Positions 34,092 through 58,477 of a DNA stretch of 64,000 bases are shown one piece after another. The position numbers and the translations under genes are program-made. The first letter of the stretch is position 1. The number at the start of each line of letters is the position of its first letter. The stretch comes from Physcomitrium patens. Its lineage: Eukaryota > Streptophyta > Bryopsida > Funariales > Funariaceae. The DNA lies in the NCBI RefSeq assembly GCF_000002425.4, contig NC_037257.1, positions 15,634,708 to 15,698,707 of the forward strand, read 5' to 3'. The notes below the pieces were generated by a model. The model was not told the DNA's origin. It ran no database searches and saw only the letters and a list, made by a program, of their open reading frames with translations.

Positions 34092-34121
34092 GGGTAATGG
34101 ATAACGATTCTTCTTTGTTAC

Positions 34122-36792: not shown

Positions 36793-36797
36793 CCTAT
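36793..36797. repeat. Target-site duplication of Ch3, right
   Basis: CCTAT, identical to 30473-30477. Confidence 0.95.
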
Positions 36798-37763: not shown

Positions 37764-38325
37764 TGTCACGGACATACTCATGTAAGCTAGTAATTACATA
37801 TACAAATAGGTAGAAGTAAGTAAAAGTAGGTAAAAGTAAGTTAATTCTATAGTATTTAATATGGTAGCTTCTTAAAAGCTTCATAGACACTGCTTTGACT
37901 TTATAGGTGTCTTTAATTGACTTTTTGGATTAGAAACGTGGTCAACAAGTTGGCCATGTGCCACACATGTTGTTAGCTTGAAAAATCAAGCTAACTATGT
38001 GGCCCACACATAGAAAAACTTGCCTTGTAAGTCAAGGCATGTGTCCTACAAAGTCAACACATATTGGAGGTCCTATAAAATGTTGCCACATAGTCCCTAG
38101 TTAGATAGTATATATAGAGACAAGAGTGAAGCCTTCTTCACTCATGTCAACTCCTTTCTTGCTTCTAATCTAGTTTCAAGGGTCTCTAGTCTTCTTGTCT
38201 TTTGGCAATAGCCATTCTTGTTTCTCTTTCAATATACATAATTATTTATTTATATTTTTTTATCTTTTTTTGAGTGAAGGCTCACTTGTTTGGATTATTT
38301 TTTCATCGAGTTCTTGTCCTTGACA
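37764..38325 (+). repeat. Ch2 5' LTR
   Basis: 562 bp, TGTCACGGACATA to CTTGACA. TATATATAG starts at 38109. The 11-mer ACTCATGTCAA at 38140-38150 marks the predicted transcript start 31 nt downstream. Confidence 0.95.
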
Positions 38326-38327
38326 GA

Positions 38328-38338
38328 TTGACAAGAGT
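38328..38338 (+). promoter_or_regulatory. Ch2 primer-binding site, probably self-priming
   Basis: TTGACAAGAGT, 2 nt after the LTR end, is the exact reverse complement of ACTCTTGTCAA in the Ch2 3' LTR (51915-51925). It differs by one base from the same site in the 5' LTR. ATATCAGAGC, resembling part of the initiator-tRNA-Met primer site, lies at 38348-38357, too far from the LTR for a normal primer site. Confidence 0.7.
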
Positions 38339-38371
38339 ACATCTACAATATCAGAGCTTTGTCTAATCTTG

Positions 38372-38443
38372 ATTAAGAGTGGATTATTCCTTTTTCTTGA
38401 TAAAATATAAGCATATTAGAAGTTGCGTATTACCCTCTTCTAA
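38372..38443 (+). promoter_or_regulatory. Ch2 leader stem-loops
   Basis: 38416-38443 is TTAGAAG, loop TTGCGTATTACCCT, CTTCTAA: a perfect 7-bp stem with the same loop as Ch3 and Ch4 but other arm bases. A weaker one (AAGAGTGG...CCTTTTTCTT) lies at 38372-38400. Confidence 0.7.
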
Positions 38444-38537
38444 ACTGATATTGTCTTTAGTATTTTCTTTGTTCTCAAGTCCTCTCTTTTATTTGTCTTG
38501 AGCAATATTAGAATTCTTCTCTTTTTTAAGTGTTATC

Positions 38538-39545
38538 ATGGCAAAACTTGTTGAAATGAAGAATGCAATGGCACAAATACAAGAGCAATTGATGGAATTA
38601 ATGCTTGCGATGCATCAATTCAATTTACCACCACAAGGAGCAATAAGATTGGCAGGAAGTGAAGATATAGATATGGTTGGAGCTGCTTCAACATCTGTAC
38701 CAAACCATGTCCTTTCTCCTATGGTGGAACGCCCTTCCAGTGTTAGAGAATCAAGAATTATCCTACCCGAAAAGTTTGATGGCACTAGATCCAAGTTTCG
38801 AGGATTTATCAATCAAGTGTAACTTATGATTGAACTTCAACCCCAAAGCTATCCAACTCTAGGATCGCAAGTTAGATTCATTGGTACACTTCTTTCAGGT
38901 TCAGCACTATCGTGGTTTTCATCTTTTCTTGAACGATGAGATCCAATATTAGATAATCTAGAGGTTTTTTTGGTGGAGTTTCGATCCATATATGGAGAAC
39001 ATGATATAATTTGTGTTGCAACCAATAAGATCCGTATTTTATAACAAGGCAATCGATTAGTAACGTTGTATGCTTCATAATTTTAATAACTTACAACTGA
39101 TATCAAGTGGAATGATGATGCACTTATTAGCCAATTTCTCTATGGATTACAATATGAGGTAAAAAAATTAATGCTCAACTTACCTGATCGTCAAACATTG
39201 AGTCAAGCAATTGACTTTGCTATGAAGTGCAACAATTACCTTTTTGAATTTCGATCTCAGAATCGTACAAGTGGACTTCAACGTTACCATAATTCAATAG
39301 CAACACCAATACCTCTTCAACACATACATTCGGAAGTAGAGGATATGCAAATTGATGCAGTATATTTCAAACCTCTTATTGAGCAAGAAAAGACTCGTCG
39401 TCATCAAGAAAGATTATGTTTATATTGTGGAGAACCAAAACACACTGCTCAACATTGTCCAAAGAAATGTCGTAATCACAAAATGAGGAGTATAGCTATG
39501 AAAGAAGACAATATGTCAGTAAACGAGTTTGTCCAACTACAATAG
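38538..39545 (+). pseudogene. Ch2 gag (broken)
   Basis: Starts MAKLVEMKNAMAQIQEQLMEL, a short coiled-coil-like segment. The capsid homology follows: ILPEKFDGTRSKFRGFINQV, a TAA where CAA is expected, then TLLSGSALSWFSSFL. After more stops it reopens at 39171 with LNLPDRQTLSQAIDFAM and ends with an intact zinc knuckle CLYCGEPKHTAQHCPKK (CX2CX4HX4C). Stops at about 38820, 38938 and 39042. Gag packages element RNA. Confidence 0.92.
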
Positions 39546-39601
39546 GAACCATATAGTTGGAACCTTGCACAATATCTAGTAAAGGTCCTATTCTCTTTTG
39601 A

Positions 39602-39991
39602 GTGCCCTCTCCTTGTTTTACATTAAATATTATTTTAGTACCTAAACATTATAAAGTCTCTGATTTGTTAGATTTGGGAGCCTTAGCATGTTTTTTAGAT
39701 GAAGAATTTACTAAAAGATATAGCATATCTTTAGTAAAGAAAACTAAACCTGTTCATGTAGAAGTCATAGATAGTCGTCGATTGTCTTCTGAAGATATTA
39801 CTCACAAAACCCTTCCTATAGAAGTAATAATCAATGGTCATAATAGTTTTGTAGTATTTAATATCATTAGATCTTCTTCTAATCCAATCATTTTAGGTTT
39901 ATTATGGTTAGAAAAATACAACCCTCAAATAGATTGGATTTTTCGAACTTTTACTTTCTCTAAAAGTATAACTAACAGTGTAGTTAATTAA
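39602..39991 (+). pseudogene. Ch2 protease
   Basis: The active-site stretch reads SDLLDLGALACFLDEEF, so the usual Asp-Ser-Gly is Asp-Leu-Gly. It ends NPIILGLLWLEKYNPQIDW. The frame is open for 129 codons and then meets a TAA. The loss of Ser suggests it is inactive. Confidence 0.85.
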
Positions 39992-40017
39992 ATAGAGAGT
40001 CATAAGTCCAGTTCAAT

Positions 40018-41337
40018 TAAATCCATATTTATAGGTGCAAAAGCTTTCTTACATGCTGCTATGAAAGAATCACCATATATTATTTATGCCACACCTGTTC
40101 CTATTGGTGAAAAGACTTCAAGTGGCATTCCAAGCTAATATCAAGAATTTCAAGATATATTTGAAAAAAAGAATGCACATACACTCCCAGAACATCGTCC
40201 CTATGATTGCTCAATTGACCTTCAAGAAGGAGCACAACCGCCATTCAGACCAATCTACAGTTTATCTCAAAATGAGTTGACTGAATTCAAGGAGTATATT
40301 GAAGAAAATCTAGCCAAGAATTTCATACGCCATTCTAAATCTTCGGCAGGAGCTCCAATTCTATTTGTGAAGAAAAAAGATGAATCATTGCAGATGTGTG
40401 TTGATTATCGAGGACTCAACAAGCTTACCATCAAGAACGGGTATCTACTACCTTTAATATGTAGACTTCTTGATCAGCTGAATCAAGCTAAGATCTATAC
40501 AAAAATAGATCTCCGGAGAGCATACAATCTAGTACGCATGAAAGAAGGAGATGAATGGAAGATTACGTTTCGAACTAGGTATGGATATTTTGAATACAAC
40601 GTCATGCCTTTTGAACTTATAAATGCACTAACAACTTTTCAACATCTAATGAATGATGGTTTTTGAGAGTATTTGGACGATTTGTGGTCTATTATCTAAA
40701 CAACATCTTGATCTATTCTAAGAATATAAAAGAACATGAACTTCATGTTCGTCATGTCTTACAAAAATTAAGAGATGCGAGACTCTATGCCAAGATAGAA
40801 AAGTGTGTATTCCACACTATTCAAGTCGATTTCTTAGGTTACATCATTTCAAATGATGGACTTATGATGGATCTTAAGAAAATTCAAACTATTATAGATT
40901 GGAAGATCCCAAAAATGATAAGAGATGTCCAATATTTTTTGAAATTTGCCAACTACTATTGGATCTTCATCAAAGACTTCTCTCGAGTTGCAACTCCACT
41001 TACACATTTGACTTGTAAAGACAAACTCCAATGGAATCAAGAAGAAGAAGTTGCTTTTGAATCTTTAAAGATAGTATTTATTTTCTACACCAATCTTGTA
41101 TTGTGTTGACTTTTCCAAAGCATTCTTTATGAAAACATATGCATCAGACTTTGCTCTGGGTGCCGTGTTATCAAAAATGGGAATAGATAACAAACTTCAT
41201 CCAATAGTCTTTCATTCAAAAAAATTCTCAGCAGCAGAAATCAATTATGAGATCCACGACAAAGAATTTCTTGCAATCATGGATTCTTTTTAAGATTGGC
41301 ATCATTATCTAGGAGGCGCTTCCAGTCCAGTCACCGT
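40018..41337 (+). pseudogene. Ch2 reverse transcriptase and RNase H start (broken)
   Basis: After the linker ([20 protein letters not shown]) it reads [33 protein letters not shown] and [20 protein letters not shown]. It shares with Ch1 the TGA at 40664-40666 and the YLNN box (40699-40704). A one-base deletion just before the box shifts the frame. RNase H starts at 41096 (FFMKTYASDFALGAVLSKM) and reads up to the solo LTR at 41338. The rest of RNase H is between 41712 and 41752 and after 49325. Confidence 0.92.
41334..41337. repeat. 4-bp target duplication of solo LTR, left
   Basis: CCGT, repeated at 41708-41711. Confidence 0.85.
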
Positions 41338-41707
41338 TGTCATATTACGTGCTTTCCTGCTCGAGAACGCACCGGGCGTCTAGCTGTAGAAGGTAGTATG
41401 GAGATTCGCAAATAGTCAAGTAGTCTATCAGTTTTTGACTGTTGGAATATAAACGACTGCAAGAATACACCGTAAATCTAATTCACCTTTCGTGTGAATT
41501 GGTCCTTTCCCTTTCTGCTGACTCCCGTTATTGGAATCGAACGGAGCATTTCAATATGCCCCAGCTGACTGTAACGGGGTGACTAACCCTGGCCTCCCAG
41601 TATTTGCACTAGAATTGGTCGTTGCTCCCAATATTCGAGGTAACTAAACATTAATAAAAGTCCTCTTTCTTTATATTTTCACAGTATACTCGTGTTACAA
41701 CACGACA
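41338..41707 (-). repeat. Internally deleted solo LTR of the Gy-C type
   Basis: 370 bp with perfect ends (TGTCATATTACGTG... to ...CAACACGACA) in Ch2 RNase H. The right part matches the start and the left part the end of a Gy-C LTR. About 1 kb in the middle, present at 45169-46163, is absent. It was probably formed by LTR-LTR recombination plus a deletion. Confidence 0.88.
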
Positions 41708-41752
41708 CCGTGTATATAGATCACAAGAACCTTGAATATTTTATGTCAGCAA

Positions 41753-41756
41753 GCGT
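41753..41756. repeat. 4-bp target duplication of Gy-B, left
   Basis: GCGT, against GCAT at 49321-49324. The single difference is a G-to-A at a CpG. Confidence 0.85.
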
Positions 41757-43078
41757 TGTTGTGTTGTCACACCACTATATGGTGAAAATATGACAAAAAA
41801 ATGATATTTTAATTAATATTCTATTATCATGGTTCAACAAGCATTCAATATATTTTACAAGGCTTTTATAAAAGCCTCTAATCCTATTTTCTTCACTTAA
41901 TAGCTAGTAGATAAAAACTAGGTAGTAATTTTACCTTCTAGGCTGTAGTAACTTTTTTATTGCCTTAGAAAGGCCATAAAATGGTAAAAAAAGGATAAAA
42001 AGGATAATTTATTAGCATGGTTGATACTAGGGTTAAGTTGAGGGTAGGATCGGGCTATAAAACCACTAGGATAGATTAGATTGATATCCGGGGGTCGGCC
42101 GGATAAGAGACAGGGTCGAAATCCGACCTCCAGCCACTAAAACGGCCACCTAGGGCAAAATACGGGGTTTTTTTTCAGATCGGGTTTTTGGATCGAAGAG
42201 CTAGCTTCAAGCTCTTTTCAAGGTCACTAGTTTGGTTTCATTAGGGTTGTGAGGGGAGAGCAATCGCTACTCAAAGTCAGTGTTTATTTTGGTGTTTTGG
42301 ATTTTATATAAAACATTGATGGTTTGCATTCTTAATCGGTTTGTGCAAGTCGTGTAGCATCTATGGATCAAAATTTGGTATTGTTTGGATAGTTGGGTGT
42401 GCTAAGTGTATACAAAAATTTGTATTAATCTAACAATGAAATTAAGAGATATCTGGGTTTTAGTACAAAGGATTATCGGAAGTTGGCAGTCTAGGATTGG
42501 ATAGGGTTTCTGTGATATCTGAAGATCTACTAGTTGGATCGACGTAATTTTTGGCTTGGTAATAGAAGATTTGGAGATCAAGCAGTTATTCAATTTTGAG
42601 CTGGAGTTAACGGTTGACAAAGGAGAAATCACTTTTGGAGTTTTTACATCAAATTTCAAGGTTGCGGCCGAGTGTCATCAGTGCGGTTTTTGGGCGTTTT
42701 CTTGCAATCTGTAAGTTGGGTTGGGCTGAAATTTTCTCAGCATATAGAAGGCTTCTACTGGTATTTGGGTGCAAAATTTCACACTAAGTGGACGGTTGGA
42801 TCAAAAGTTACAGCTTATCAAAGCTCACTGGCTAGTATTAGGGCTTGTTAAGAAAAACAAAAATAACTTAATTATAAAAGAAATAAAGCAATTGGAATAT
42901 TGTATGGTTAAAATGACTATGAGAAGTGTTTTTAAATACTTGGAAATTGATATTTCAATTATATTCTTCATACATGGATAAAATCTATTAGGATTTTTTT
43001 GTTATTTGCAAAAATAACTATACATTCCACAACGAGATACCCAGTGTATTCCCGAACAAGACAACACGTAATACGACA
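41757..43078 (+). repeat. Gy-B 5' LTR
   Basis: TGTTGTGTTGTCACACC to AACACGTAATACGACA. The right 900 bp (from about 42176) are shared almost unchanged with the solo LTR at 55100-56002. The left 420 bp are specific to Gy-B. Short open frames seen here recur in all three copies only because the LTR is repeated. Confidence 0.95.
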
Positions 43079-43081
43079 AAA

Positions 43082-43100
43082 GTGGTGAATCCGACGTGAA
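43082..43100 (+). promoter_or_regulatory. Gy-B primer-binding site
   Basis: GTGGTGAATCCGACGTGAA begins 3 nt after the LTR. The same site with small changes follows the Gy-C LTR (46167-46185) and the Gy-D LTR (53518-53500, minus). TGGT fits a tRNA CCA end, but I could not name the tRNA. Confidence 0.7.
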
Positions 43101-43147
43101 AGCTTGAGGTGAAGGTATTGGATTTTAGTTGATTTTATCTTTATTTT

Positions 43148-45168
43148 ATGGAAATCGAAAATAAAAATTTTGAAGGATTTTTGGGAGGAATTTTTGGTGG
43201 GGGTTCTTCTAAAAGACAAGGTATGCACATGGATCCATCTATTGCTAATATGTTTCAAGCCTTCTCATTATCAATGCAGCAACAGCAAAGCAATGATCGA
43301 AAGGAAGCTTTAGCAACCAAAGCATTATAAGCAGTGGTTAATAAAATTGATCAATTTGATGGAAGGAATATTTGAAGGTATTTAAGATGTTATGTTCTTG
43401 AAATGGAATTAAATCGAGTTTTTGAGAAGAAAATGGTTGAATTATTTGGACTTGCCATGATACCGGAGATAAAAGACCATATTACATCGATTATGGATTG
43501 TTATGGGAATTCATGGGAGGTTTTGCACATGCATTGAAAGACAAATATTTCTTGGAAGATGCTTATCGCGTTACTAAGAAGTTATTTCTGGAATGGATTG
43601 AACGGCCCAATAAGAATTTGCAAGCAACAGAGCTACTAAGGGAATTTGAGAGGCAGTTATCTCAATTATCGAAGGTAGAAAAATTAACATTGGAGCCGAA
43701 CAAAGTTGATCTATTTCTTCAAGCTGCTGATGGAGAATTGTAAGGGAAATTAGAACTCCTTCTTGAAGACAAAGAAGAAGATGAAGGATTGACAACAAAG
43801 TGGAAGAACGTTGAAGATGCGGTGGAGTTGCTTACAAAAAGAGAAAGGAGGAAGGATAGGAGCAATATTCCAAAAATAGTACAAGCATACAAAGCTCCAG
43901 TACGTACAACACCACCAACAATGCCTACAGTTCAACCTTCGACATCCTTATCAAAGAAAGCAGATATGGAGATGAAAGAAATTATATGAGGAATGCGAGA
44001 TCTTGAAATCAAATTAGGAAGAGTTGAAGAGAATACTTCTACAAACAATTCGAAGAATGTTTCAAAACAAAGATATGTACAAAGATGCATTTGGTGTGAT
44101 GACGCTTCACACACTAGAAAAGATTGCAATGAATTTAATAATATGATACGACAGAGAATTATTTGCTGGAAAGATGGGAAGATAGCATTAAAAGATAGGG
44201 AGGATCTTCTTCAAACCAATTTTGGCAAGGGAAGAATGAGAGCATTGGTTCAAGATTACCTAAAAGAGCATGAAACAAGAGCATGAGAAAGTGCAAGTTA
44301 TGGTGCTAGAGTAGATGATGAAATTAGTGAAAGTACGAAAACTAGTGAGTTTTGGGCTTCTGCCGTTTCTACAATGCAAGAAGGGAAATTACCTCGAGAA
44401 GCGTTATTGAGGACTGCAGCTACAATACGAGGTAGAACAGGTTGAGGGGATCCTGTTGAGTCTCTTTCAGTTCATGCATATATTGCTAAGAGCCAACATG
44501 AAGCTTTGATGGAAGAAAAGAGACGAGGAAATTTTGATGATACGAGAGAAGGAAATTCTTCTAAGAGGCAAACTCGAGGAGACAAGGCTCGGGAGGTAGC
44601 TTCACAAGAATTGCCTGTAAAGGATACCTCAGCATCATTGGAAGAAAAAACAAGGGAGACAAAAGATAAGGGCAAATCAATTGCTTATAAGCTACTTTCT
44701 GACATTGAAGCAGCAACAAATTTGAAAGGGGTGTTGGAAGAACGTATATTAAACGCTAAGGTGGAATTCACATTGAAAGAAGTTTTGGAAATTGCAAAGA
44801 AGGAGTTTCATGATGTTATCATTGACAGCATTAAGCGAAAGAGGTAATTAATGGACAAAACTGGAATGAGTCATGTTATTGATCCAAGAATATATAAAGA
44901 TGAAGAAGAGGTTGATATTGGTTACAAGCAACCAACAAATGAAAAAAATGGGTATAATCAACGAGTACGTTTCGAAGATTATAGTAATAAGGAAATTGAA
45001 GCTTTGAGCCATTATACTCGAAAGCATTAGGCGAGGGTAACTACTGAGGTATTCGTGAAAGTAGGAGATATAGAAGAACCAATTGTTGCTTTAGTCTACC
45101 ATGGTTCTGAAATAAATCTTATGTCTAAAGATCTTTATAAGAAACAAAAATGGTCAATTGATATGGAA
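43148..45168 (+). pseudogene. Gy-B gag, first (Gy-D type), with protease start
   Basis: Starts MEIENKNFEGFLGGIFGGG, a Gly-rich head, then SIANMFQAFSLSMQQQQ. The capsid-like part reads NKIDQFDGRNI, YVLEMELN and LFGLAMIPEIKDHITSI; after a frame change it gives VTKKLFLEWIERPNKNLQATELL. A zinc knuckle CIWCDDASHTRKDC (CX2CX4HX4C) lies at about 44090-44132. The tail runs TREGNSSKRQTRGDKAREV, LEERILNAKVEFTLKEVLEIAKKEF, ending at about 44847. A protease start (VYHGSEINLMSKDLY) follows and is cut at 45169. Stops at 43328, 43374, 43741, 43987 and 44284. Confidence 0.88.
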
Positions 45169-46163
45169 TAGGGATGGGCAATCCAATGAAGTCTAATTAC
45201 GAAAAAATCCAGGTCTTACTACGTGCCTCAGCCAATCTGACGTGAAGGACCAATTTGATCCAATTACGGGAACATCTGGGTCTTACTACTGGACTGTTAG
45301 CCAATATGAGACCTGAATTGGTCAGGCGACTCAATGTGGTCCCAATTACGGGGTTTCGATTCTGTTTCAGACTGTCCTGTTCTCTGTGCCGTTTCAGGGA
45401 ATGTTTTTTTTGGTAAAAGGATCTCTTAAAGGTAAAAACGGAGGAGAAAGCTCTGACGGTGAGAGCCAATTTTGGATCCAAGCTCTGCCGGTGGGAGCCA
45501 ATTCCGGATCGAAGACGGAGGATTGAAGAAATTCAGAATTAAAGTTAAGAAATGAGAGGGGAGAGAATAAGTTTTGGGGGGGGGGAGAAGTTTTTTTTGG
45601 AGGAGGTTTTTGAAGGATCAGAGAGCTAGCTTCATGCTTCGGAGCAGGGAAAAAAGACAGAGAATTGGGTTTTTTTTCTTCTTCGTAGGATTTTGGGAAG
45701 ACTGAGGCAATTGTTGCTGAAGTCAGTGTTGTAATGGTGAATTGGAATTTTTAATGAAGTGGGTTTGATTATTCTTGACTGTTTTGTGAAATCGAGTTAC
45801 ATCTGTCATGAAGAATTAAAAGGATGTCTATATGATTGAGTATGCAGAGTGAATGAAATTTATTGGGTTAATCTAACAAGACAGTCAGTGGATACAAGAT
45901 CGTGAGTATAAAGCGGTATCGGAGATTAGGAGATTGGGTTGTTTGGGGTTCTCTGTAACGTCTAGAGACCTACCGGCTGGGGCAAAAAGGACTTCGGCGA
46001 GTAGTCAAAGGGCATCTATATAGATTTACGGTGTATTCTTGCAGTCGTTTATATTCCAACAGTCAAAAACTGATAGACTGCTTGACTATTGGTGAATCTT
46101 CATACTACCTTCTACAACTAGACGCCCGGCGCGTTCTCGAGCAGGAAAGCACGTAATACGACA
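45169..46163 (+). repeat. Gy-C LTR fragment inside Gy-B
   Basis: Begins abruptly within the LTR (GGGATGGGCAATCCAATG corresponds to position 54609 of the solo LTR) and runs to its true end GTAATACGACA, followed by the primer site. About 310 bp of LTR start are missing. Its centre keeps a decayed reading frame matching the LTR-encoded ORF of Gy-D (GLLANMRPELVRRLN against GLLSSMRPDLVEQPN). Confidence 0.85.
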
Positions 46164-46439
46164 CAAGTGGTGAACCCGACATGAACGTTTGGATTTTGTA
46201 TGTGGTTATTTGGATTGTTGGTGCAAGATGACAAGGTTGATTTTAGAGTTTTTGGAAGACTTGGAGCTGTGGAGGATATTTTGAAAAGCAATGGTGATAT
46301 TTGGATTATTATGGAGTATATTATGGCTTTATAGACATCTTGGGGCATTTTGAGGTATCATAAGTTATTTATTAGAGCATTTCAAGGGATATTTTTTTAA
46401 CATTGTGGAAGAAAATAGAAGATATTTCAATGTAGTCTT

Positions 46440-47670
46440 TGGATAGGTTGAATACTTTGGATGGACCAAATGTTAAAGAGTTTTTTTTGAGGCTTTTTGT
46501 ATATTCATGAAAGAACAACAAAAGATACAAGGAATTGAAAGGGATATCACAAAGGCATTACAAGGAATTTTCAACAAATTTGGGAGGTTTAACGGATGCA
46601 AGATCACTAAGTTTTTATAAGTTTATACATGTGAGATGGAGACATGCCAAATCCCTGAGGCAAAGATGATTTGAAGCTTTTATTTGGCTATTGAACTTGA
46701 GATTCATAAAAAGGTGAAGACATTATTTGAAAGGGGTATGGAGACATGGTCAAAATTTCAAGAACTTTTGAAGAAAGAATTTATTGATGCAAATGAAGAT
46801 AAGATTACCCAGCGACAGTTTTTGGATTAGATAGAATTACAACTAGATGAGTCTACGGAGAGTGGTTATACTAACAATTGGAAAGAGTTGAAAGAAGCAA
46901 CAATTCTTTTAGCAAAGCAACAAAGATCACAAGCTAAAGGAGTTGGAGTATGGTCTAAGAAATCTTCTACTTTGGCTTCTATATCATCTTTATCAATACA
47001 AGGGATTAATCTTGAAAAAAGAGAAATGGAACAGCAACTGGAGGACTTCAAAGGAGGAGCCAATTTTTTGCAAATGAAAGAAAGTGGATCTTTTATCAAA
47101 GATGGTGAAGGAAAGAACAAAGACTTTGATCAAATTATTACTATGGAAGGTCAAAATATCAAAAAAATTGAAGGCAATATGGAACTCAAGGATTTAGAAA
47201 TTAATGACAATAAGGATGAAAATTATGGCTATTCTACATTGAATATGTTTATGCAAGTGGATGATGGCAATTTCGATGGAACATCTCATGGTGGTAAAAA
47301 AGATTATGGTAAAAGTTACAAGATTTTTCAAGAACATGAGGTTTCACAAGGCTATGAAATTTTTCAATATTATGAAGTAATACAACATATTGAGATAACA
47401 CAAGGTTATGATGTTTCACAAGGATACATTCAAGAAGAAATGAAGGACGTTTTACAAGGATACATTCAAGAAGAAATGATAGATATTTTACAAGATAATG
47501 TGGCAAAAGAAGATTATGGAATCAAAGGTAAAGGTACTAAATCAATGGCTTTAATCAAGTTAATTGTGAGTACTAATCTTTTGGACCAAGATCAAGGTTA
47601 CATGGATAATGCACATGTATTGGGGGCACGATTGGATTTTGATAAGAAAAAGATTCATCATGAAGTGTGA
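46440..47670 (+). pseudogene. Gy-C type gag with repeat-rich tail (broken at the start)
   Basis: The first half has stops but reads KEQQKIQGIERDITKALQGI, GRFNGCKITKFL, TLFERGMETWSKFQELLKKEF, then KITQRQFLD. This matches the capsid-like part of the gag at 63189-64000. From 46888 it is open for 260 codons. This tail is acidic with QGYE, QHIE, QGYD and QGYI units, including a duplicated GYIQEEM block about 14 residues apart. No zinc knuckle, protease or pol follows. A spacer and the polypurine tract AAGGGGTGGA (47989-47998) come next. Confidence 0.75.
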
Positions 47671-47998
47671 AATTCAAAGGTTAAAATTCTAAAAATCTTC
47701 AAATATAAAGACATGGGCAATGGATTTAAGGATTATATGGACGTCTTAAATCAAGCATGGAATCAAAGGAACAAGAAAAAAAATGCAAGCAAGATGTATG
47801 TGGCCATAAGGAAGAAGTTTCAATTAAATCTTTCCATTTCAAAATTTGTACCTCGCCAATGGTTTGGTCAAGTACAAAGTTGGATGTTTCTAATTTACTT
47901 GTACAAGATGGATACATGGATTTTTGGTATTTGATAAAGAATAATGGTGTATTGAATTTGGCACATATCGGAGGATATGCACGTTAAGAAGGGGTGGA

Positions 47999-49320
47999 TG
48001 TTGTGTTGTGACACGACTATATGGTGAAAATATGACAAAAAAATGATATTTTAATTAATATTCTATTATCATGGTTCAACAAGCATTCAATATATTTTAC
48101 AAGGCTTTTATAAAAGCCTCTAATCCTATTTTCTTCACTTAATAGCTAGTAGATAAAAACTAGGTAGTAATTTTACCTTCTAGGCTGTAGTAACTTTTTT
48201 ATTGCCTTAGAAAGGCCATAAAATGGTAAAAAAAGGATAAAAAGGATAATTTATTAGCATGGTTGATACTAGGGTTAAGTTGAGGGTAGGATCGGGCTAT
48301 AAAACCACTAGGATAGATTAGATTGATATCCGGGGGTCGGCCGGATAAGAGACAGGGTCGAAATCCGACCTCCAGCCACTAAAACGGCCACCTAGGGCAA
48401 AATACGGGGTTTTTTTTCAGATCGGGTTTTTGGATCGAAGAGCTAGCTTCAAGCTCTTTTCAAGGTCACTAGTTTGGTTTCATTAGGGTTGTGAGGGGAG
48501 AGCAATCGCTACTCAAAGTCAGTGTTTATTTTGGTGTTTTGGATTTTATATAAAACATTGATGGTTTGCATTCTTAATCGGTTTGTGCAAGTCGTGTAGC
48601 ATCTATGGATCAAAATTTGGTATTGTTTGGATAGTTGGGTGTGCTAAGTGTATACAAAAATTTGTATTAATCTAACAATGAAATTAAGAGATATCTGGGT
48701 TTTAGTACAAAGGATTATCGGAAGTTGGCAGTCTAGGATTGGATAGGGTTGCTGTGATATCTGAAGATCTACTAGTTGGATCGACGTAATTTTTGGCTTG
48801 GTAATAGAAGATTTGGAGATCAAGCGGTTATTCAATTTTGAGCTGGAATTAACGGTTGACAAAGGAGAAATCACTTTTGGAGTTTTTACATCAAATTTCA
48901 AGGTTGCGGCCGAGTGTCATCAGTGCGGTTTTTGGGCGTTTTCTTGCAATCTGTAAGTTGGGTTGGGCTGAAATTTTCTAAGCATATAGAAGGCTTCTAC
49001 TGGTATTTGGATGCAAAATTTCACACTAAGTGGACGGTTGGATCAAAAGTTACAGCTTATCAAAGCTCACTGGCTAGTATTAGGGCTTGTTAAGAAAAAC
49101 AAAAATAACTTAATTATAAAAGAAATAAAGCAATTGGAATATTGTATGGTTAAAATGACTATGAGGAGTATTTTTAAATACTTGGAAATTGATATTTCAA
49201 TTATATTCTTCATACATGGATAAAATCTATTAGGGTTTCTTTCTTATTTGCAAAAACAACTATACCTTCCACAACGAGATACCCAACGTATTCTCGAACA
49301 AGACAACACGTAATACGACA
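47999..49320 (+). repeat. Gy-B 3' LTR
   Basis: 1322 bp, TGTTGTGTTGTGACACG to GTAATACGACA, followed by target duplication GCAT (49321-49324). Confidence 0.95.
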
Positions 49321-50765
49321 GCATATTAAATTGTCGTCAAACTTGTTGGAGCATGTCTTTATCAAGATTCGAGTTCATCATCACTTATCGGCTAAAAAAA
49401 CAACAAGGTTTGTCCGATATCTTATCTAGACGTTCTTATCTTGTACCAAAAGAAGGAGATACAACTTTTGAGCAACAAAGAACGGTGCTCTTGAAGTCGG
49501 AGCAATTTCATCTTCGAGTAATAAAATTAACATTGACTATTGATTTAACTTTTCTTAAGCAAGTCCAGTTAAGTATGTCTTCAGACCCTCTTGTTCATGA
49601 TATTAAGAATAATTCTTCTAAATCTCATGATCCCTCTAAATTTGATTTTAAGAATAACCTACTCTATTTCGAAGGATGCCTATATGTTCCAGAAGGAGAA
49701 GCACGTTAACGTATTCTTCAAGCTCATCATGACTTCTCAGCAGCAGGACATTTTGGATATAATAAGACTTTGGAGCTGATATCTAGGGATTTTTGGTGGC
49801 TTCAAATGTGAAAGGCAGTCAAAGATTTTGTACAATCATGTGATGTTTGCTCAAGATCAAAAACTCCTCGTCATTGACTTTTTGGACTTCTTCAGCTATT
49901 ATCCATTCCAGAACAACCATGGTCTTCTGTTTCTATGGACTTCATTATGGATCTTCCAATCTCAGATACTTATGATTCTATATTCGTGATAGTAGATCAT
50001 TTTACCAAGATGGCATATTTTGTACCATGTACAAAAACTATCACATGTGAAGAAATAGCTAACCTCTTTCTTGACAATATCTATGACTATCATGGATTAC
50101 CCAAGGATATTATATCAGATAAGAAAACTCAATTTGTATCAAGATTTTGGTAGACTCTTTTCAAGATTCTAAAAGTGGACATAAAATAATCTTCGGCATT
50201 CCATCCTCAAACTAATGGATAAATGGAGCGTGTTAATCAAGTTTTGGAGCAATATTTAAGATGTACTATTAACTACCAACAAGATGATTGGACAACTCTT
50301 TTGCCATTGGCAGAGTTTGCTTACAATAACACGGTACATTCTTCTATAAAACAAACACCTTTCTTTGTTAATTATGGTTATCATCCACGAATTGATACTT
50401 TTGACATTTCAAAAGTTGATAATCATGCTGCAAAAGACTTGGCGATTCATTTATCAGAGCTACATGCAATGATGAAGGCACAGTTAAAAGAGGCCCAAGA
50501 ACAACAAAAGGTCAATGTGGATGTGTATCGAAAGAAACAACCACCATTCCTCTTAGGTGATAAGATATGGCTACTTCATCACAATTTCAAGACCACTCGT
50601 CCTTATGACAAGTTGGACAATCAAAGGTTGGGACCATTTTCTATTTCTGCACAAATCAATTCAGTTGAATATGATTTACATCTACCAAAGTCAATGAAAA
50701 TCCATCCAGTATTCCACGTGTCTCTTCTTGAACAATACAAGATAGTGGACATACCAAGAAGATAA
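49321..50765 (+). pseudogene. Ch2 RNase H end and integrase (broken)
   Basis: Resumes Ch2 after Gy-B: SMSLSRFEFIITYRLKKQQGLSD, the end of RNase H, where Ch1 has stops. Integrase: HHDFSAAGHFGYNKTLELIS with the zinc His pair intact, CDVCSRSK, a TGA shared with Ch1 (49875-49877), MDFIMDLPIS, VIVDHFTKM (first Asp), ISDKKTQFVSRFW (second Asp), a TAG, then ERVNQVLEQYL after a TAA in DGQ-ER. The C-terminal domain ([30 protein letters not shown]) is open to 50765. Confidence 0.92.
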
Positions 50766-50799
50766 CAAGTTCTACCTCCTCTTATAGAAGTGGACAATA

Positions 50800-50970
50800 A
50801 TGAAGAGTTTGAAGTAGAAGAAGTCTTAGATTCAAGGCGACGCCGAAATAAATTAGAATATCTTATCCATTGGCACGGATATGGTATTAGTGAACGCACA
50901 TGGGAGCCAATAAAGAATCTTACAAATGCAGCAAAGGCGGTGGAGGCTTTTTATCAACGACATCTATAAA
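50800..50970 (+). pseudogene. Ch2 chromodomain
   Basis: [20 protein letters not shown], then [20 protein letters not shown] and a helix [13 protein letters not shown]. All elements of a chromodomain are intact in this copy; only the link to integrase is broken by the TAA at 50763-50765. Confidence 0.95.
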
Positions 50971-51075
50971 AATCAAGATGAAAACCTTCTTTATAAAAGA
51001 AACAACATCTAGGCAAGATAACATTCTACTTTCAATCTTTGTTCGTAGCTTCTTTGTAGTTGTGACGTTCAAGAG

Positions 51076-51498
51076 ATGGAGAACCAAGAACTAGTGGATT
51101 CGACTCAAGAGCCTTCATTTGCTGACCTGCCGGACAAGACATTACGATTGTCACAACCTTCAAGACGATGCAATCGAGATGAAGATCTTCGAGAACGACA
51201 TGTTCTTCCTCAAATAGATGGCAAGATACAACACATTTGGTATCACGATTTAGGAAGGGACTCCTGATGTTTGGTGATTTTGCTAGAGGTAGGAACAACT
51301 CCTGATGGCATTCTAAATGTTCTATTCGAAGGAAGTTATGAAGGCCTCAACATTGATCAAATAACTGGGTAGTCTTCTCGCCCTAGTATAGGACACTACC
51401 GATGGTTGACAGACCCTATCAATCATCTTCGAAGAGAACAAAGATCAGAGTATGTAGCAAATATAATTTGTCGCATCACAGATTTTTTCAACATATGA
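51076..51498 (+). pseudogene. Ch2 ORF2: extra ORF after the chromodomain
   Basis: 141 codons including the stop. Opens MENQELVDSTQEPSFADLPD, then LRLSQPSRRCNRDEDLRER, then IWYHDLGRDS and a TGA, then VILLEVGTTPDG, LFEGSYEGL, a TAG where Trp is expected (Ch1 has W), and HYRWLTDPINHLRREQRSEYVANIICRITDFFNI. It starts about 100 bp after the chromodomain in its own frame, so it needs reinitiation, a subgenomic RNA or readthrough. The same length is conserved in Ch1. No known fold recognised. Confidence 0.72.
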
Positions 51499-51539
51499 TG
51501 ATCGCTCCTCGTGGAACTCGTCCCTAGAAGGGAGGGTAA

Positions 51540-52100
51540 TGTCATGGATATATTCATGTAAGCTAGTAATTATATATATAAATAGGTAGAAATAAGTAAA
51601 AGTAGGTAAAAGTAAGTTTATTCTATACTATTTAATATGGAAGCTTCTAAGAAGCTTCATAGATGCTGCTTTGACTTTATAGGTGTCTTTAATTGACTTT
51701 TTGGATTAGAAACGTGGTCAACAAGTTGGCCATGTGCTACACATGTTGTTAGCTTGAAGATCAAGCTAACTATGTGGCCCACACGTAAAAAAACTTGCCT
51801 TGTAAGTCACAGCATGTGTCCTACAAAGTCAATACATATTGGAGGTCCTATAGAACGTCGCCACGTAGCCCCTAGTTAGATAGTATATATAGAGAGAAGA
51901 GTGAAGCCTTCTTCACTCTTGTCAACTCCTTTCTTGCTTCTAGTCTAGTTTCAAAGGTCTCTAGTCTTCTTGTCTTTTGGCAATAGCCATTCTAGTTTCT
52001 CTTTCAATATACATAATTATTTATTTATATTTTGTTACTTTTCTTTGAGTGAAGGCTCACTTGTCTGGATTATTTTTTCATCGAGTTTTTGTCCTTGATA
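51540..52100 (+). repeat. Ch2 3' LTR
   Basis: 561 bp, TGTCATGGATATA to CTTGATA, preceded by the polypurine tract AGAAGGGAGGGTAA. TATATATAG starts at 51884 and ACTCTTGTCAA is at 51915-51925. Confidence 0.95.
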
Positions 52101-52105
52101 GCTAT
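52101..52105. repeat. Target-site duplication of Ch2, right
   Basis: GCTAT, identical to 37759-37763. Confidence 0.95.
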
Positions 52106-53460: not shown

Positions 53461-53499
53461 ATAAAAATAAATGAATTTTAATACCTCTCACCTCAAGCT

Positions 53500-53518
53500 T
53501 TCACGTCGAGTTCACCAC
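53500..53518 (-). promoter_or_regulatory. Gy-D primer-binding site
   Basis: On the minus strand GTGGTGAACTCGACGTGAA follows the LTR end ACGACA after a 3-nt spacer (TAA). Confidence 0.7.
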
Positions 53519-53744
53519 TTATGTCGTATTACATGCTATCTTGCTTGAAAACACACCGAACAACTTATTGTGGAAGATAAAATGATGTTTTGTAAGTATC
53601 CAAGTAGTCTAGTGGGTTTCAACCATCTAAATACAAACTATTTCGGATTTCAATGTAAAAGCTTAATCCCAATACAAAGTGCTTAGAAACACTATTTCTA
53701 ATAACTTCAAGATATTATAAGCACAAATCTCTTTGTTATTTTAT

Positions 53745-53835
53745 AATTTTATTTTATTTTATTTTATTTATTATTTATTATTTTATTATTTTATTATTTT
53801 ATTATTTTATTTTATTTATTTATTTATTTTTTAAT
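53745..53835. repeat. (ATTTT)n / (ATTT)n microsatellite in Gy-D LTR
   Basis: About 90 bp of mixed TTTTA and TTTA units. It is absent or much shorter in the other Gy-D LTR, which breaks off near the same place. Confidence 0.9.
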
Positions 53836-54296
53836 TTTTATTTTTTTAATTTTTAAACCCTAATCCTAGACAACAAGCTTCGGCAAGCTATAATTTTCAA
53901 TCTAACCGTCTGATTGTTGTAAAAATTCTACCACTAGTATCTTTACAAATCTTTTAAATGCTCAAGAAGTTTCAATCCAATCTAACTTACAGATTGCAAG
54001 AAAACGTCGTAAATCCACACTGATGTTCCTTGACCGCTGCCTAGAAAGTTGAAGACGAACCTCGACTTGTAATTTCTCCTTTTCCAACTGTTAATTCTCA
54101 TTCAAACCTTGTGTGTAGCTACGCCTTTAAGTCTTCGACTTATCACATCAAAATTCATCTTATTCTAGCTGATAGATCTCCAGATATTACAGAAACCCTA
54201 AACAACCTCAATATGCCGACTTCTGATACCTCTTTACACTAATGATCAAATATCCTCTATCTATACCATTAGATTAACACAAATTTTTACATGCGC

Positions 54297-56002
54297 TGTC
54301 GTGTTGTAACACGAGTATACTGTGAAAATATAAAGAGAGAGGACTTTTATTAATGTTCAGTTACCTCGAATATTGGGAGCAACGACCAATTCCAGTGCAA
54401 ATACTGAGAGGCTAGGTTCAGTCACCCCGTTACAGTCAACCGGGGCTTACTGAAATGCTCCGTTCGATTCCAATAACGGGAGTCAGTAGAAAGGGAAAGG
54501 ACCAATTCAACGACGGGTGAGTCTGGTTCGAAGAGCAAATTGGATCCAATTTCAAGACATCCAATCCAGGTCCTCTTACCCAATATGAGAACTGAATTGG
54601 TCGGGTAGCCCAATGCGGTCTAATTGTGGGAACATCTAGGTCTTACTACGGGCCTCTTATCCAATATGAGACCTGAATTGGTCGGGCGATTCAATGTTGT
54701 CCCGATTACGGGGCTCTGATTCCGTTTCAGGCTGTTCCGTCTTTTGTGCTGTTCTGGAGACGTCTTTTCGGTAAAAAGATCTCTTAAAGGTAAAAACGGA
54801 GGAGAAAGCTTTGACGACGGAGCCAATACTGAATCCAAGACAGAAGGAGCCAATTCCAGATCCAAGACGGAAGGAGCCAAGTCCGGATCCAAGACAAAAG
54901 GAGCCAATTTCGGATCCAAGACAAAAGGAGCCAATTCCAGATCCAAGATGGAAGGAGCCAATTTCGGATCCAAGACGGAAGGAGCCAATTCCGGATCCAA
55001 GACGAAAAATTGAAGAAATTCAGAGACTAGGGTTTGAAAGAGGGGAGAATTAGGGTTAAAGGGGAGGAAGGTTAAGAAATAAGGGGGGGGGTTTTTTTCA
55101 GATTGGGTTTTTTGGATCAAAGTGCTAGCTTCAAGCTCTTTTCAAGGTCACTAGTTTGGTTTCATTAGGGTTGTGAGGGGAGAGCAATCGCTACTCAAAG
55201 TCAGTGTTTATTTTGGTGTTTCGGATTTTATATAAAACATTGATGGTTTGTATCCTCAATCGGTTTGTGCAAGTCGTGTAGCATCTATAAATCAAAATTT
55301 GGTATTGTTTGGATAGTTGGGTGTGCTAAGTGTATACAAAAATTTGTATTAATCTAACAATGCAATCAAGAGATATCTGGGTTTTAGTACAAAGGATTGT
55401 CAAAAGTTGGCAGTCTAGGGTTGGATAGGGTTTCTGTGATATCTGAAGATCTACTAGTTGGATCGACGTAATTTTTGGCTTGGTAATAGAAGATTTGGAG
55501 ATCAAGCGGCTATTCAATTTTGAGCTGGAGTTAACGGTTGACAAAGGAGAAATCACTTTTGGAGTTTCTACATCAAATTTCAAGGTTGCGGCCGAGTGTC
55601 ATCAGTGCGGTTTTTGGGCGTTTTCTTGCAATCTGTAAGTTGGATTGGGCTGAAATTTTCTAAGCATATAGAAGGCTTCTACTGGTATTTGGGTGCAAAA
55701 TTTCACACTAAGTGGACGGTTGGATCAAAAGTTACAGCTTATCAAAGCTCACTGGCTAGTATTAGGGCTTGTTAAGAAAAACAAAAATAACTTAATTATA
55801 AAAGAAATAAAACAATTGGAATATTGTATGGTTAAAATGACTATGAGGAGTGTTTTTAAATACTTGGAAATTGATATTTAAATTATATTCTTCATACATG
55901 GATAAAATCTATTAGGGTTTCTTTCTTATTTGCAAAAATAACTATACATTCCACAACGAGATACCCAGTGTATTCCCGAACAAGACAACACGTAATACGA
56001 CA
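54297..56002 (+). repeat. Solo LTR, recombinant Gy-C / Gy-B type
   Basis: 1706 bp, TGTCGTGTTGTAACACG to AACACGTAATACGACA, flanked by GCGC (54293-54296) and GTGC (56003-56006), which differ by a C-to-T at a CpG. The unoccupied site is seen in the other Gy-D LTR at about 25796-25806. Left of about 55085 it matches the Gy-C LTR; right of it, it matches the Gy-B LTR almost perfectly. The switch lies in a G/T homopolymer tract. Confidence 0.92.
54819..55007. repeat. 27-bp tandem repeat, seven units
   Basis: Seven consecutive 27-bp units, each starting GGAGCCAA and containing GATCCAAGA, with small differences. The related LTR at 45455-45510 has about two irregular units. Because 27 is divisible by 3, both strands give repetitive open frames. 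Confidence 0.97.
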
Positions 56003-56272
56003 GTGCTTGGCATACTCAACTATCTAGACATCTCTAAAATTTCAACTACAGATGTTTTTCTAATTTCACAAAACAGTCAAGAGTACTAGCCTTAACTTTA
56101 CTGCAAAAAAAATCCAATTTATCAATACAAACATTGACTTTGAGCAACGATTGCAAAGTCCTCCCAAATCCTATGAAATCAAGTCCTATACCTTTTGAAG
56201 GAGCTTGAAGCTAGCTCTCTGACCCCAAAATTTTGATATCCAAATGCCCTCTTCTTTTTCCTCTCTTTTCCT

Positions 56273-56990
56273 TTAACTATGTGAGGTCCCCTTATTCTCC
56301 TGCCTTGGACTCGGAATTGGAACACCTTGAAATAGAACCGAAGCCTCCGTAATCGAAACCTCATTGGGTTGCCCAACCAAGTCAGGTCTCATACTGGATA
56401 AGAGGCCCATAACAGGACTTGGATTGGATGTCCCCATAATTGGGTCAAATTGGCGCTTTACATCAAACTCACCCAAATGTTGAATTGGTCCTTTCCTCTT
56501 TTGCAGACTCCTAGTAAGAACAGCTTAGATACATTCCACCTGATTTATTGGAGTATCTTAAGGACCTTGATTTATCTCTTCAATTTTTTCTTGGCTTTGG
56601 ATCTACTGATCTCGATTATTGAAATTGAACGAAGCATTATATTGTTGATAAGTATGCCCCGACTGTTTGCAATTCCCACACACTGGCATTTAATCGTCAC
56701 TAGCTTTAGGATTGGGATATTTACTAGTATAATGACCAACCTGACTGCGACAAAAACAACAAAGTGGTCTTCTTGCACCCCCATCAGGCATATTAGGTGT
56801 CTCCACCGATATATACCTATTAGACTTGTTCCATGTAGGGTTAGAAAATGATCATAATTTTTCCATTGCTACAAAAGGTACTTGGTTTGATGACATCAAT
56901 GGAGCATATTGCTCATGTCACATATGGTGGTATAGCTTACAATGGGGTGACATTAACTGGCCCTTGAGTATTGGCACTGGAATTAGCCAT
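56273..56990 (-). pseudogene. LTR-encoded zinc-knuckle reading frame (5' LTR copy)
   Basis: Same 718-bp span as 26070-26787. ATG gives MANSSANTQGPVNVTPL, stop. The second frame gives SFSNPTWNK, ETPNMPDGGARRPLCCFCRSQVGHYTSKY (a landmark only; last Cys is Tyr), a stop, then MPVCGNCKQSGHTYQQY, in which the final Cys is Tyr. The tail reads HLGEFDVKRQFDPI, GLLSSMRPDLVGQPNE and ends in a stop at 56273. Decay differs from the other copy, so together they show the original residues, but the frame change between start and knuckles is common to both. Confidence 0.6.
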
Positions 56991-57074
56991 TGTTCCTAAC
57001 ATCCAAGATGACTAAATATTAATAAAATCTTTTTTATTTATATTTTCATCATATATTCATATTACAATACGACA

Positions 57075-57700
57075 TCATTCCAGTCCACATCGCAAGCAAG
57101 ATTTTGGAATTTGGCAGTATATGTAGTGGTTGATCGTGATCCTTGTCATAAGGATAGAAGCTTAGTTTCTGCTATTCGTTCTTCATCATTTTTTCCAAAT
57201 GTGGCTGTAAATACTTCTAAAAATAAATTCAAATCATAGAAGAGTCATGAATCTTTTTTCATTAAAGGTACATATAAAGAGAGAGCACTTCCTGATAGTA
57301 GTGTGCATATATATCCAACTTGGATAAATCCATCAGGATATTGGAAAAGCTGCAACCTTAGATAGAGCTTGATTTGTTGCAAAAACCCTCAAAATTTTGA
57401 TCTTGTTCCATCAAACTTCTCAGGCATAGTAATCCTTGTCCTTGTCATACTTGTAGAAGTAAAACTCCCTGGATTTGGTTGTGACCATAATCTACTTGTT
57501 TCTTTAAACTGCACAACTTTTTATCGCAGACTTTGAACTTCTTCTATAGGCTTAGGCATAGTGCTTCCATGATTCACGTTAGAAATACGTGAGATTTCTA
57601 CTCTTAGAGTTGACAAGCTCATGAAGATCTACTATAGTTACAAATCTATTCTCACTTCCTTTGAGAGTAGCATCCATAATCGTTCCTTCCATAGATAACT
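57075..57700 (-). pseudogene. Ch4 gag, N-terminal part (decayed)
   Basis: The minus strand matches Ch2 gag 38538-39130: a start region near 57680, the ILPEKFDGT-like segment near 57425, and AKFQNLAFDVDWN near 57075-57110, where the Gy-D LTR begins. Many stops. Confidence 0.75.
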
Positions 57701-57721
57701 CAAATGAATTCAAAAGTTAAA

Positions 57722-57888
57722 TTAGAGGAGGATAATCCGCAACCTCTAAAAACAAATCCCATAAAGAGGGATAATCCACTCTCTTTAAAGAAAAGATTAG
57801 TATTAGAAAATAAGTTTTTTTATTTAAAGGTGGGTAGTTCGCAACCTTTAAAAAATAATAATAGAAGTGGGGTAATCCATTCACTTCT
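57722..57888 (-). promoter_or_regulatory. Ch4 leader: four perfect stem-loops
   Basis: 57722-57749 TTAGAGG/CCTCTAA. 57763-57786 AAAGAG/CTCTTT. 57823-57852 TTTAAAGG/CCTTTAAA. 57863-57888 AGAAGTG/CACTTCT. Each stem is perfect although the arms differ. The loops keep GGATAATCC, GGGTAGTTC or GGGTAATCC (window strand). Confidence 0.8.
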
Positions 57889-57916
57889 AGAATAAGACAA
57901 AAGAAATATATTAGTA

Positions 57917-57927
57917 CTCTTGTCAAA
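57917..57927 (-). promoter_or_regulatory. Ch4 primer-binding site, probably self-priming
   Basis: On the minus strand TTGACAAGAGT follows the LTR after 2 nt (GT), as in Ch2. It pairs with 10 of 11 bases of ACTCTTTTCAA at 58105-58095, 31 nt downstream of the TATA box of the same LTR. Confidence 0.7.
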
Positions 57928-57929
57928 CT

Positions 57930-58477
57930 GTCAAGGACATGAATCTCGAAGAAAGGAAATCTTCAATACACTCTTCAATCATTGAAGAGAATTAGAAAGT
58001 CACTCAAAAGGTGATGTAATATTAACTAGAATGGCTATTGCCAAAAAACATGAAGACTAGAAAGTCTTGAAACAAGACTAAGACTCAAAAGGCATTGAAA
58101 AGAGTGAAGAAGGCTTCACTCTTGCCTCCATATATACTATCTAACTAAGAGCCACATGGCAATGTCCTATAGGACCTCCAACATGTGTTGACTTTGCTAG
58201 TCACATGTCTTATCTTGTAAGGTAAGTTACCTATGTATACACTACGTAGTTGGCTTGTTCCACAAGCTATTATATGGAGGTAACTTATTCCACAAGCTAT
58301 CAATACATGGTTAGCTTTTTGGCCAAGTTTCTAATCTACGAACATATCTAAAATCAAAACCGTGTCTATAAAGCTTCTAGGAAGCTTCTCTAGAAGACTT
58401 TATGAAATTATTCTATTTTATCTACTTCTACTTAATCATATAAATAACTATTGAGGTAAATATATATGTCCGTGATA
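57930..58477 (-). repeat. Ch4 5' LTR
   Basis: 548 bp, TGTCAAGGACATGAA (inner) to TATGTCCGTGATA (outer). TATA box (minus) starts at 58136. The next element, Ch5, starts directly at its outer edge without a visible target duplication. Confidence 0.88.

Follow-up and report, generated by a model that had tools for sequence, protein, structure and literature searches.

What primes reverse transcription in the retrotransposons of this locus? We examined a 64,000-nucleotide stretch of the moss Physcomitrium patens (RefSeq assembly GCF_000002425.4, contig NC_037257.1, positions 15,634,708 to 15,698,707; hereafter the window, numbered from its first letter), in which three long terminal repeat (LTR) elements are under study: Ch2 at 37764-52100 on the plus strand, Ch3 at 30478-36792 on the minus strand, and Ch4, also on the minus strand, which is known by its 5' LTR at 57929-58477. 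In Ch2 and Ch4, and with a gap in Ch3, the 11 nt at the transcript start predicted from the TATA box complement a site 2 nt past the 5' LTR. This is like Tf1 of Schizosaccharomyces pombe (and Tf2, Tj1 and Tosmo1-3), in which nt 1-11 of the RNA complement a site beyond the 5' LTR. A sequence-only reading of the window had proposed Tf1-like self-priming, and we find this to be the best explanation for all three elements, with a probability of about 0.82. As far as sequence can indicate, self-priming is well supported: the geometry speaks for it, base changes that separate the families are compensated, relatives outside Physcomitrium share the layout, and TGG is absent past the window LTRs. On this reading, each of the three is a copy of a self-primed Ty3/gypsy element of the Tf1/sushi-Tcn1 kind.

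If these elements prime as Tf1 does, transcription would start 31-32 nt past the TATA box, and nt 1-11 of the RNA would loop back to pair with the complementary site, 2 nt past the end of the 5' LTR; the complementarity is seen directly, and the folding is predicted in most copies. RNase H would then cleave after nt 11, by analogy with Tf1, where the accessible part of the description places the cut between nt 11 and 12 (PMC7175516), and the 11-nt piece would prime minus-strand DNA. The primer would be copied into a new primer site in each round, so that primer and site would be expected to change together.

Complementarity of transcript start and primer site in the window

The features that define primer and site are the following.

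37764..38325, plus strand: Ch2 5' LTR with TG..CA ends (ends and flanks by eye)
38109..38117, plus strand: Ch2 TATA box TATATATAG, with the predicted +1 31 nt further on
38140..38150, plus strand: Ch2 predicted self-primer, +1 to +11, ACTCATGTCAA, with one mismatch to the site
38328..38338, plus strand: Ch2 primer-binding site TTGACAAGAGT, 2 nt past the LTR
51540..52100, plus strand: Ch2 3' LTR, its terminal CA mutated to TA
51915..51925, plus strand: Ch2 primer copy in the 3' LTR, ACTCTTGTCAA
57929..58477, minus strand: Ch4 5' LTR, related to that of Ch2 (~73-78% identity in aligned LTR stretches)
58095..58105, minus strand: Ch4 predicted self-primer ACTCTTTTCAA, 10/11 complementary to the site
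57916..57926, minus strand: Ch4 primer-binding site TTGACAAGAGT
36295..36792, minus strand: Ch3 5' LTR (ends by eye); the 3' LTR ends at 30478
36422..36432, minus strand: Ch3 predicted self-primer AGTCTTGACAA, which reads AGTCTCGACAA in most parsed copies of the family
36284..36292, minus strand: Ch3 primer-binding site TTGTCGACT, shortened by a 2-nt deletion relative to the TTGTCGAGACT of most parsed copies of the family

The two LTRs are 93.1% identical in Ch2, which lies between 5-bp target duplications (GCTAT at 37759-37763 and 52101-52105), and 94.2% identical in Ch3, which has ATAGG on both sides. The predicted +1 lies 31 nt from the TATA box in Ch2 and Ch4 and 32 nt in Ch3. Read directly from the window, the three Ch2 strings, the Ch2 and Ch3 offsets and the primers of Ch4 (58105-58095) and Ch3 (36432-36422) stand where the sequence-only reading had placed them. 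Two details changed: TTGACAAGAGT of Ch4, which had been put at 57927-57917, is present one base away at 57926-57916 and has one mismatch with its own primer, and the gapped site of Ch3 is indeed present as a 9-nt string at 36292-36284, but the gap is a 2-nt deletion.

None of the three window elements retains a perfect primer/site pair in its 5' LTR. In both Ch2 and Ch4, the +1 11-mer is 10/11 complementary to the site, and no other 11-mer between U3(-60), in the unique 3' (U3) region, and the LTR end complements it as well. When the stretch from the repeat (R) through the unique 5' (U5) region was shuffled 20,000 times with dinucleotides preserved, the +1 11-mer reached 10/11 at a frequency of 5e-5 for Ch2 and 1.5e-4 for Ch4; when an 11-mer from anywhere in R-U5 was allowed to reach this score, the frequency was 0.0035 for either element (2,000 shuffles). 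The possibility that the complementarity reflects chance, or the composition of AT-rich LTRs, draws on Ch3, where the ungapped match in the window is 6/11, a background level, so that support for Ch3 comes from its family copies. We regard this possibility as negligible, given the shuffle frequencies at a fixed position, the recurrence of the layout with at least four different primer sequences and the family comparison below. Genome-wide, TTGACAAGAGT has 20,479 matches compared to 123 for its reversed control.

Priming by a tRNA, for example by initiator tRNA-Met, would require that the complementarity at the LTR edge have another role. A clean tRNA primer site next to the LTR was sought, and no TGG, the complement of the tRNA CCA end, occurs in the first 49 nt past the LTR of any of the three window elements. 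The candidate site is a conserved downstream motif, TATCAGAGC, which we take to be part of the usual plant initiator site TGGTATCAGAGC. In favor of this candidate, 53 of the 58 junctions from Physcomitrium have TATCAGAGC 10-14 nt past the self-primer site, when one mismatch is allowed and overlapping loci are kept. However, in the leaders read it is not preceded by TGG, so that the 3' CCA of the tRNA would be unpaired, and it is absent from window Ch4 (by eye) and from six relatives outside Physcomitrium. We consider tRNA priming very improbable, and a displaced initiator-tRNA site at TATCAGAGC was set aside on the counts of 53/58 in Physcomitrium and 0/6 in the outside relatives. With at most one mismatch, TGGTATCAGAGC has three matches in the 556,874 bases fetched, none resembling an LTR edge, and no tRNA-primed control was obtainable from them.

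The motif TATCAGAGC is found at 38349-38357 of the window and in the leaders of two genome copies (L010 and L030), 10 or 14 nt (13 in one) past the self-primer site. Either a leftover from tRNA priming or a structural function could account for it.

Primer and site in other copies of the families

The elements that carry TTGACAAGAGT, Ch2 and Ch4, probably belong to RLG1, with which we equate them by abundance only. RLG1 is described, in the part of the source available, as the most abundant LTR family of P. patens, with 5,092 complete copies, a chromodomain and transcription in protonema (PMC7466625). The 20,479 matches to TTGACAAGAGT are of the order expected if each complete RLG1 element has about three copies of it. 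Ch3 is a family related to, but distinct from, the TTGACAAGAGT elements.

For Ch3, we took the 40 best genome matches to the window leader segment and fetched 12 loci, one of which is the window copy, and then 20 more; 30 copies besides the window copy could be parsed (11, and 19 of the 20; locus L051 did not parse). The Ch4 family was sampled through the window and chance copies in other loci. The site lies at +140 from +1 in all 30 parsed Ch3 copies, and it matches the primer at 11/11 positions in 16 copies, 10/11 in 12, 9/11 in one and 8/11 in one. Most of these copies have AGTCTCGACAA at +1 and TTGTCGAGACT past the LTR, and thus the window copy of Ch3 has lost two bases from its site.

Relatives outside Physcomitrium and compensated changes

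To extend the comparison, bacterial and archaeal assemblies were scanned with a reverse transcriptase (RT) alignment, which yielded 40 loci (L061-L100). Their contigs, such as CAKZGI010000361.1, CADCWO010000091.1 and JAPYPR010000053.1, carry Ty3/gypsy elements and look, by content, like eukaryotic contamination. The self-primer layout was found in six of the 33 contigs scanned upstream of the RT: L061, from the cyanobacterial bin AVDCRST_MAG81, and L062, L063, L064, L067 and L098, all from one 'Trichormus' bin, whose eukaryotic DNA may, at a guess, come from a fern such as Azolla. In these six a TATA box is followed after 31-33 nt by 11 or 12 nt with a perfect complement 2 nt past a putative, LTR-like end (..ACA in 6/6); the total of 33 counts contigs whether or not they hold a 5' LTR. 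The primers are AGTCTCGACAA in L061, ACTCTTGATCAA in L062, AAGGCGAACAA in L063, L064 and L098, and AAGGTGAACAA in L067. Three further contigs (L084, L094, L097) gave 10/11 matches under the same rule and were judged unrelated. No relative was confirmed in viral contigs.

If the primer is copied into the site, differences between primers should recur in the sites, and between families they do. The sequence-only reading had noted that the base changes between the two window families are matched in the primer site, and we find this for 3/3 differences between RLG1 and Ch3 and likewise for every other pair compared: 7/7 for RLG1 and L063, 6/6 for RLG1 and L067, 6/6 for Ch3 and L063, 5/5 for Ch3 and L067, and 1/1 for L063 and L067.

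The primer ends in CAA, followed by C, in L010, L030, L061-L064, L067 and L098, regardless of the rest of the primer sequence; in window Ch4 and in L009 a T follows instead. The CAA-then-C boundary may mark the RNase H cut.

We placed these elements in a midpoint-rooted tree of RT pieces, with a reference set composed without seed-plant or REXdb sequences. RLG1, Ch3, L061 and P0001 come together (0.857), and this group shares a clade (0.978) with a protein of the fungus Absidia, in a part of the tree occupied by proteins of fungi and vertebrates. L063-L067 and L079 make up a cluster of their own, and L062 is nearer to RLG1. Few of the best 120 RT matches, with thousands more below them, are named proteins, and of these most are fungal, the rest being vertebrate, amoeboid and one from a bacterial bin, with none from seed plants. 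The sequence-only reading had drawn its comparison with seed-plant chromoviruses. Judged by the tree neighbors and the literature, the elements probably belong to the Tcn1 clade.

A hairpin that pairs U3 with the primer

The primer has a second potential partner, which the sequence-only reading had not described. Primer nt 1-8 or 1-9 have a complement in the part of U3 that follows the TATA box and precedes +1, and the two together give a hairpin of 12-13 bp with a tetraloop. Its positions in the window are the following.

38119..38148, plus strand: Ch2 5' LTR U3/R inverted repeat, 13-nt arms and 4-nt loop CCTT, 12/13 pairs in this copy
51894..51923, plus strand: Ch2 3' LTR U3/R hairpin (in the RNA, the 3' primer copy paired with U3), fold -16.7 kcal/mol, z -4.1
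58097..58126, minus strand: Ch4 U3/R inverted repeat, z -2.3
36425..36453, minus strand: Ch3 U3/R inverted repeat, loop AGTT

Among 83 distinct LTR copies (49 RLG1-type and 34 Ch3-type), picked by a loose match to the hairpin region itself, stem positions form standard or G-U pairs in 605 of 637 cases for the RLG1 type and 394 of 442 for the Ch3 type, in which the outermost position is unpaired in most copies. The hairpin is also present in L061, L063, L064, L067 and L098; L066 and L079 have it downstream of the RT, at places that presumably belong to 3' LTRs. Stems have 12-13 bp and a 4-nt loop (with one internal mismatch in L067) and include primer nt 1-8 or 1-9 (2-10 in L067). Fold z scores are -6.7 for L010, an RLG1-type copy, -5.8 and -6.6 for Ch3-type copies, and -6.4, -7.6, -6.0, -5.0 and -7.9 for L061, L063, L064, L067 and L098, respectively; the window hairpins of Ch4 and of the Ch2 3' LTR, with the values listed above, are weaker. 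The primer differences between families that are compensated in the site are compensated in the U3 arm as well, in every pair compared.

Self-primed elements face a problem that tRNA-primed ones do not, since the RNA holds the primer sequence twice, once in each R. If the transcript starts at +1, U3 would precede the 3' copy only, and the 3' LTR part of the RNA would be the one place where the hairpin could form; the pairing is seen, and a role can be proposed. The hairpin would keep the 3' primer copy, as well as transcripts begun too far upstream, off the site, so that the authentic 5' end alone would prime. The folding models described below suggest that the hairpin may guard the primer site in this way. 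More broadly, and tentatively, since we rate it at less than an even chance, the hairpin might be a built-in part of self-primed LTR elements that keeps its shape and its pairing with the primer even as evolution replaces its sequence; it would lock all primer copies except the true 5' end, with the result that the element proofreads where its transcripts start and that the 3' R copy cannot block the site. If so, the hairpin gives a testable answer to the question of how the wrong primer copy is excluded. It is the more interesting and the less certain part of our findings.

The agreement of primer, site and U3 arm could also be an artefact of copying. Template switching is known to correct imperfect palindromes, and a reverse transcriptase that switches templates within the inverted repeat would correct one arm from the other, giving three-way agreement without selection, all the more as every cycle is expected to copy primer and site from each other. 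Such correction explains maintenance but not origin, and it leaves unexplained why two separated groups have nearly the same loop size (4 nt) and nearly the same position of +1 within the stem; the imperfect pair 12 of RLG1-type stems, a G-U in 13 of 49 copies, also leans against it. We judge this account unlikely.

A role at the DNA level is another alternative. The repeat might be a promoter feature, a dyad at the start site that is bound by a factor or extruded, and would then cover the primer by position only. Consistent with this idea, every family with the repeat has it in the interval from the TATA box to +1, and L062, which is self-primed by layout, lacks it. On the other side, the geometry is kept while the sequence is replaced (RLG1 and L063 have different bases at 7/11 primer positions, each with a compensating change), unlike a sequence-specific site. 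In addition, G-U pairs in the sense RNA depart from the symmetry of the repeat at pair 7 in 34/34 Ch3-type copies and at pair 12 in the RLG1-type copies just mentioned; fixed or common G-U pairs point weakly, at two positions only, to a role in RNA over one in DNA. We find a promoter dyad doubtful, though it deserves slightly more weight than correction by copying.

Predicted folding and the points that weigh against this interpretation

For cofolding, we used 46 junctions selected for at least 10/11 complementarity. With the native U3, the probability that the 3' primer copy is paired to the site stays below 0.1 in all 46; with U3 removed, P exceeds 0.5 in 31 of the 46 (mean 0.57). With the real 3' LTR of L010, the pairing probability at the site is 0.00 with U3 and 0.94 without it. 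In the leader alone, primer and site pair at P>0.5 in 17 of 19 RLG1-type and 16 of 27 Ch3-type junctions. Primer:site probabilities for L062, which has a 12-nt complement, were out of register and were left unused; its hairpin fold was used.

A number of results weigh against self-priming guarded by a hairpin. First, the transcript start is a predicted placement, based on the distance from the TATA box and a pyrimidine-A step. Second, covariation between LTR start and primer site was tested within the Ch3 family as well as between families: a C-to-T change in the primer occurs in 8 of 30 copies and a G-to-A change in the site in 4 of 30, and both occur together in 2, with about 1 expected by independence. 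Within-family covariation was accordingly rejected, as the double change in L039 and L045 fits two independent CpG decays. Third, the leader folds are uneven. Pairing of primer with site is not predicted in 11 of 27 Ch3-type leaders alone, and when the U3-R strand is added it is predicted in 16 of 19 RLG1-type but only 6 of 27 Ch3-type junctions; in L061 it falls from 0.94 alone to 0.06 with the second strand. Whole leaders gain no stability over shuffles (eight leaders, z -1.7 to +0.8), and of the Tf1-like 'pretzel' an inner helix is seen in some leaders, but the second flanking duplex was not recognized.

The remaining points concern the hairpin. A shuffled U3 also lowers the mean pairing of the 3' copy with the site, from 0.57 to 0.30, and thus part of the effect of U3 is unspecific. 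The second strand in the cofolds of junctions and relatives was the U3-R of the 5' LTR itself, standing in for the 3' LTR, and the 46 and 31 junctions were chosen for at least 10/11 complementarity and a hairpin-core motif, so that they give no measure of how often either is lost. L062 has no U3 hairpin (z -0.1), which indicates that the hairpin is dispensable. At stem positions other than those with fixed or common G-U pairs, worn copies have no excess of G-U over A-C (14 to 15 in the RLG1 type, 13 to 10 in the Ch3 type), as a DNA-level dyad would allow. Finally, a TATA box plus hairpin is not diagnostic as a stand-alone detector, finding 9 places in 40 outside contigs compared to 6 in reversed controls.

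Relation to known self-primed elements

The sequence-only reading held that self-priming in a plant would be new. While its mechanism is supported, its claim of novelty is not: in the passages available, Neumann et al. 2019 (PMC6317226) predicted self-priming for 12% of the plant LTR elements examined, including most Tcn1 chromoviruses of mosses and club mosses, and also for the TAR copia lineage. Their criterion, as given there, accepted all complements of 10 bp or longer that begin 0-5 bp past the LTR. For SM-Tcn1, the part of Novikova et al. 2010 (PMC2864245) available to us reports that neither tRNA priming nor self-priming was found. The moss elements thus resemble the plant Tcn1-clade chromoviruses in host, type and self-priming (PMC6317226, same passages). 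The TATA/+1 geometry, the compensated changes and the U3 partner, all present here, are absent from the passages of those accounts compared, and RLG1 may be among the elements that they list. What the present analysis adds is the compensated-change support and the U3 hairpin; self-priming in a plant chromovirus was already a known prediction.

Like the Tf1 group, the moss elements have Ty3/gypsy order and, in Ch2, a Tf2-1-like SH3 domain; unlike Tf1 they have a moss host, and flanking pretzel duplexes are not established in them. The U3/R hairpin goes unmentioned for Tf1 and its kin in the descriptions compared, which were partial and did not include the Tf1 sequence, and a U3 hairpin of self-primed elements was not found in the open-access literature searched, itself partial for Tf1. 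Tcn1 of Cryptococcus neoformans, for which self-priming has been proposed according to the accessible text (PMC7175516), is similar as described there and differs in its fungal host. TAR-lineage Ty1/copia elements (Houba, Osr-1) share predicted self-priming in plants, as far as the passages at hand describe them, but have copia order in contrast to the Ty3/gypsy order here. Self-priming in plants, which in the available text of Neumann et al. 2019 (PMC6317226) rests on motif searches, now has a compensated-change test, and since the family is the apparently dominant and reportedly transcribed one of a laboratory moss, the proposal can be tested at the bench.

Coding regions and other features of the window

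33003..34121, minus strand: Ch3 RT-RNase H open frame, 372 aa (Pfam RVT_1, RT_RNaseH, RT_RNaseH_2)
32266..32883, minus strand: Ch3 integrase, zinc-binding and core domains (Pfam Integrase_H2C2, rve)
50223..50765, plus strand: Ch2 integrase C-terminal piece with Tf2-1-like SH3 domain (Pfam SH3_Tf2-1, 7.8e-18)

The minus-strand frames of Ch3 follow Ty3/gypsy order, with RVP_2, then RVT_1/RNase H, then Integrase_H2C2/rve by Pfam, and the RNase H of Ch3 would be the enzyme expected to free the primer. Among the 19 frames scanned with Pfam, no chromodomain was matched, and the SH3_Tf2-1 domain of Ch2 was found. In the U3 part of both Ch3 LTRs (36492-36795 and 30677-30976), a unit of ~101 bp is repeated in tandem about three times; these units are possibly repeated promoter elements.

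Inside Ch2 lies a pair of direct repeats of 1,322 bp, 98.7% identical (41757-43078 and 47999-49320), which suggests a nested LTR element at 41757-49320; the open reading frame between them (46831-47670) has no Pfam match. A related 916-bp piece is found at 55087-56002. Rfam (at gathering scores) and ARAGORN reported nothing in the 64-kb window. Apart from the elements, the window holds a dirigent-domain gene at 17832-18395 on the minus strand, which matches P. patens dirigent protein 11 in 158 of 172 aligned residues; all 14 mismatches fall before residue 32, and the two are identical from residue 32 on.

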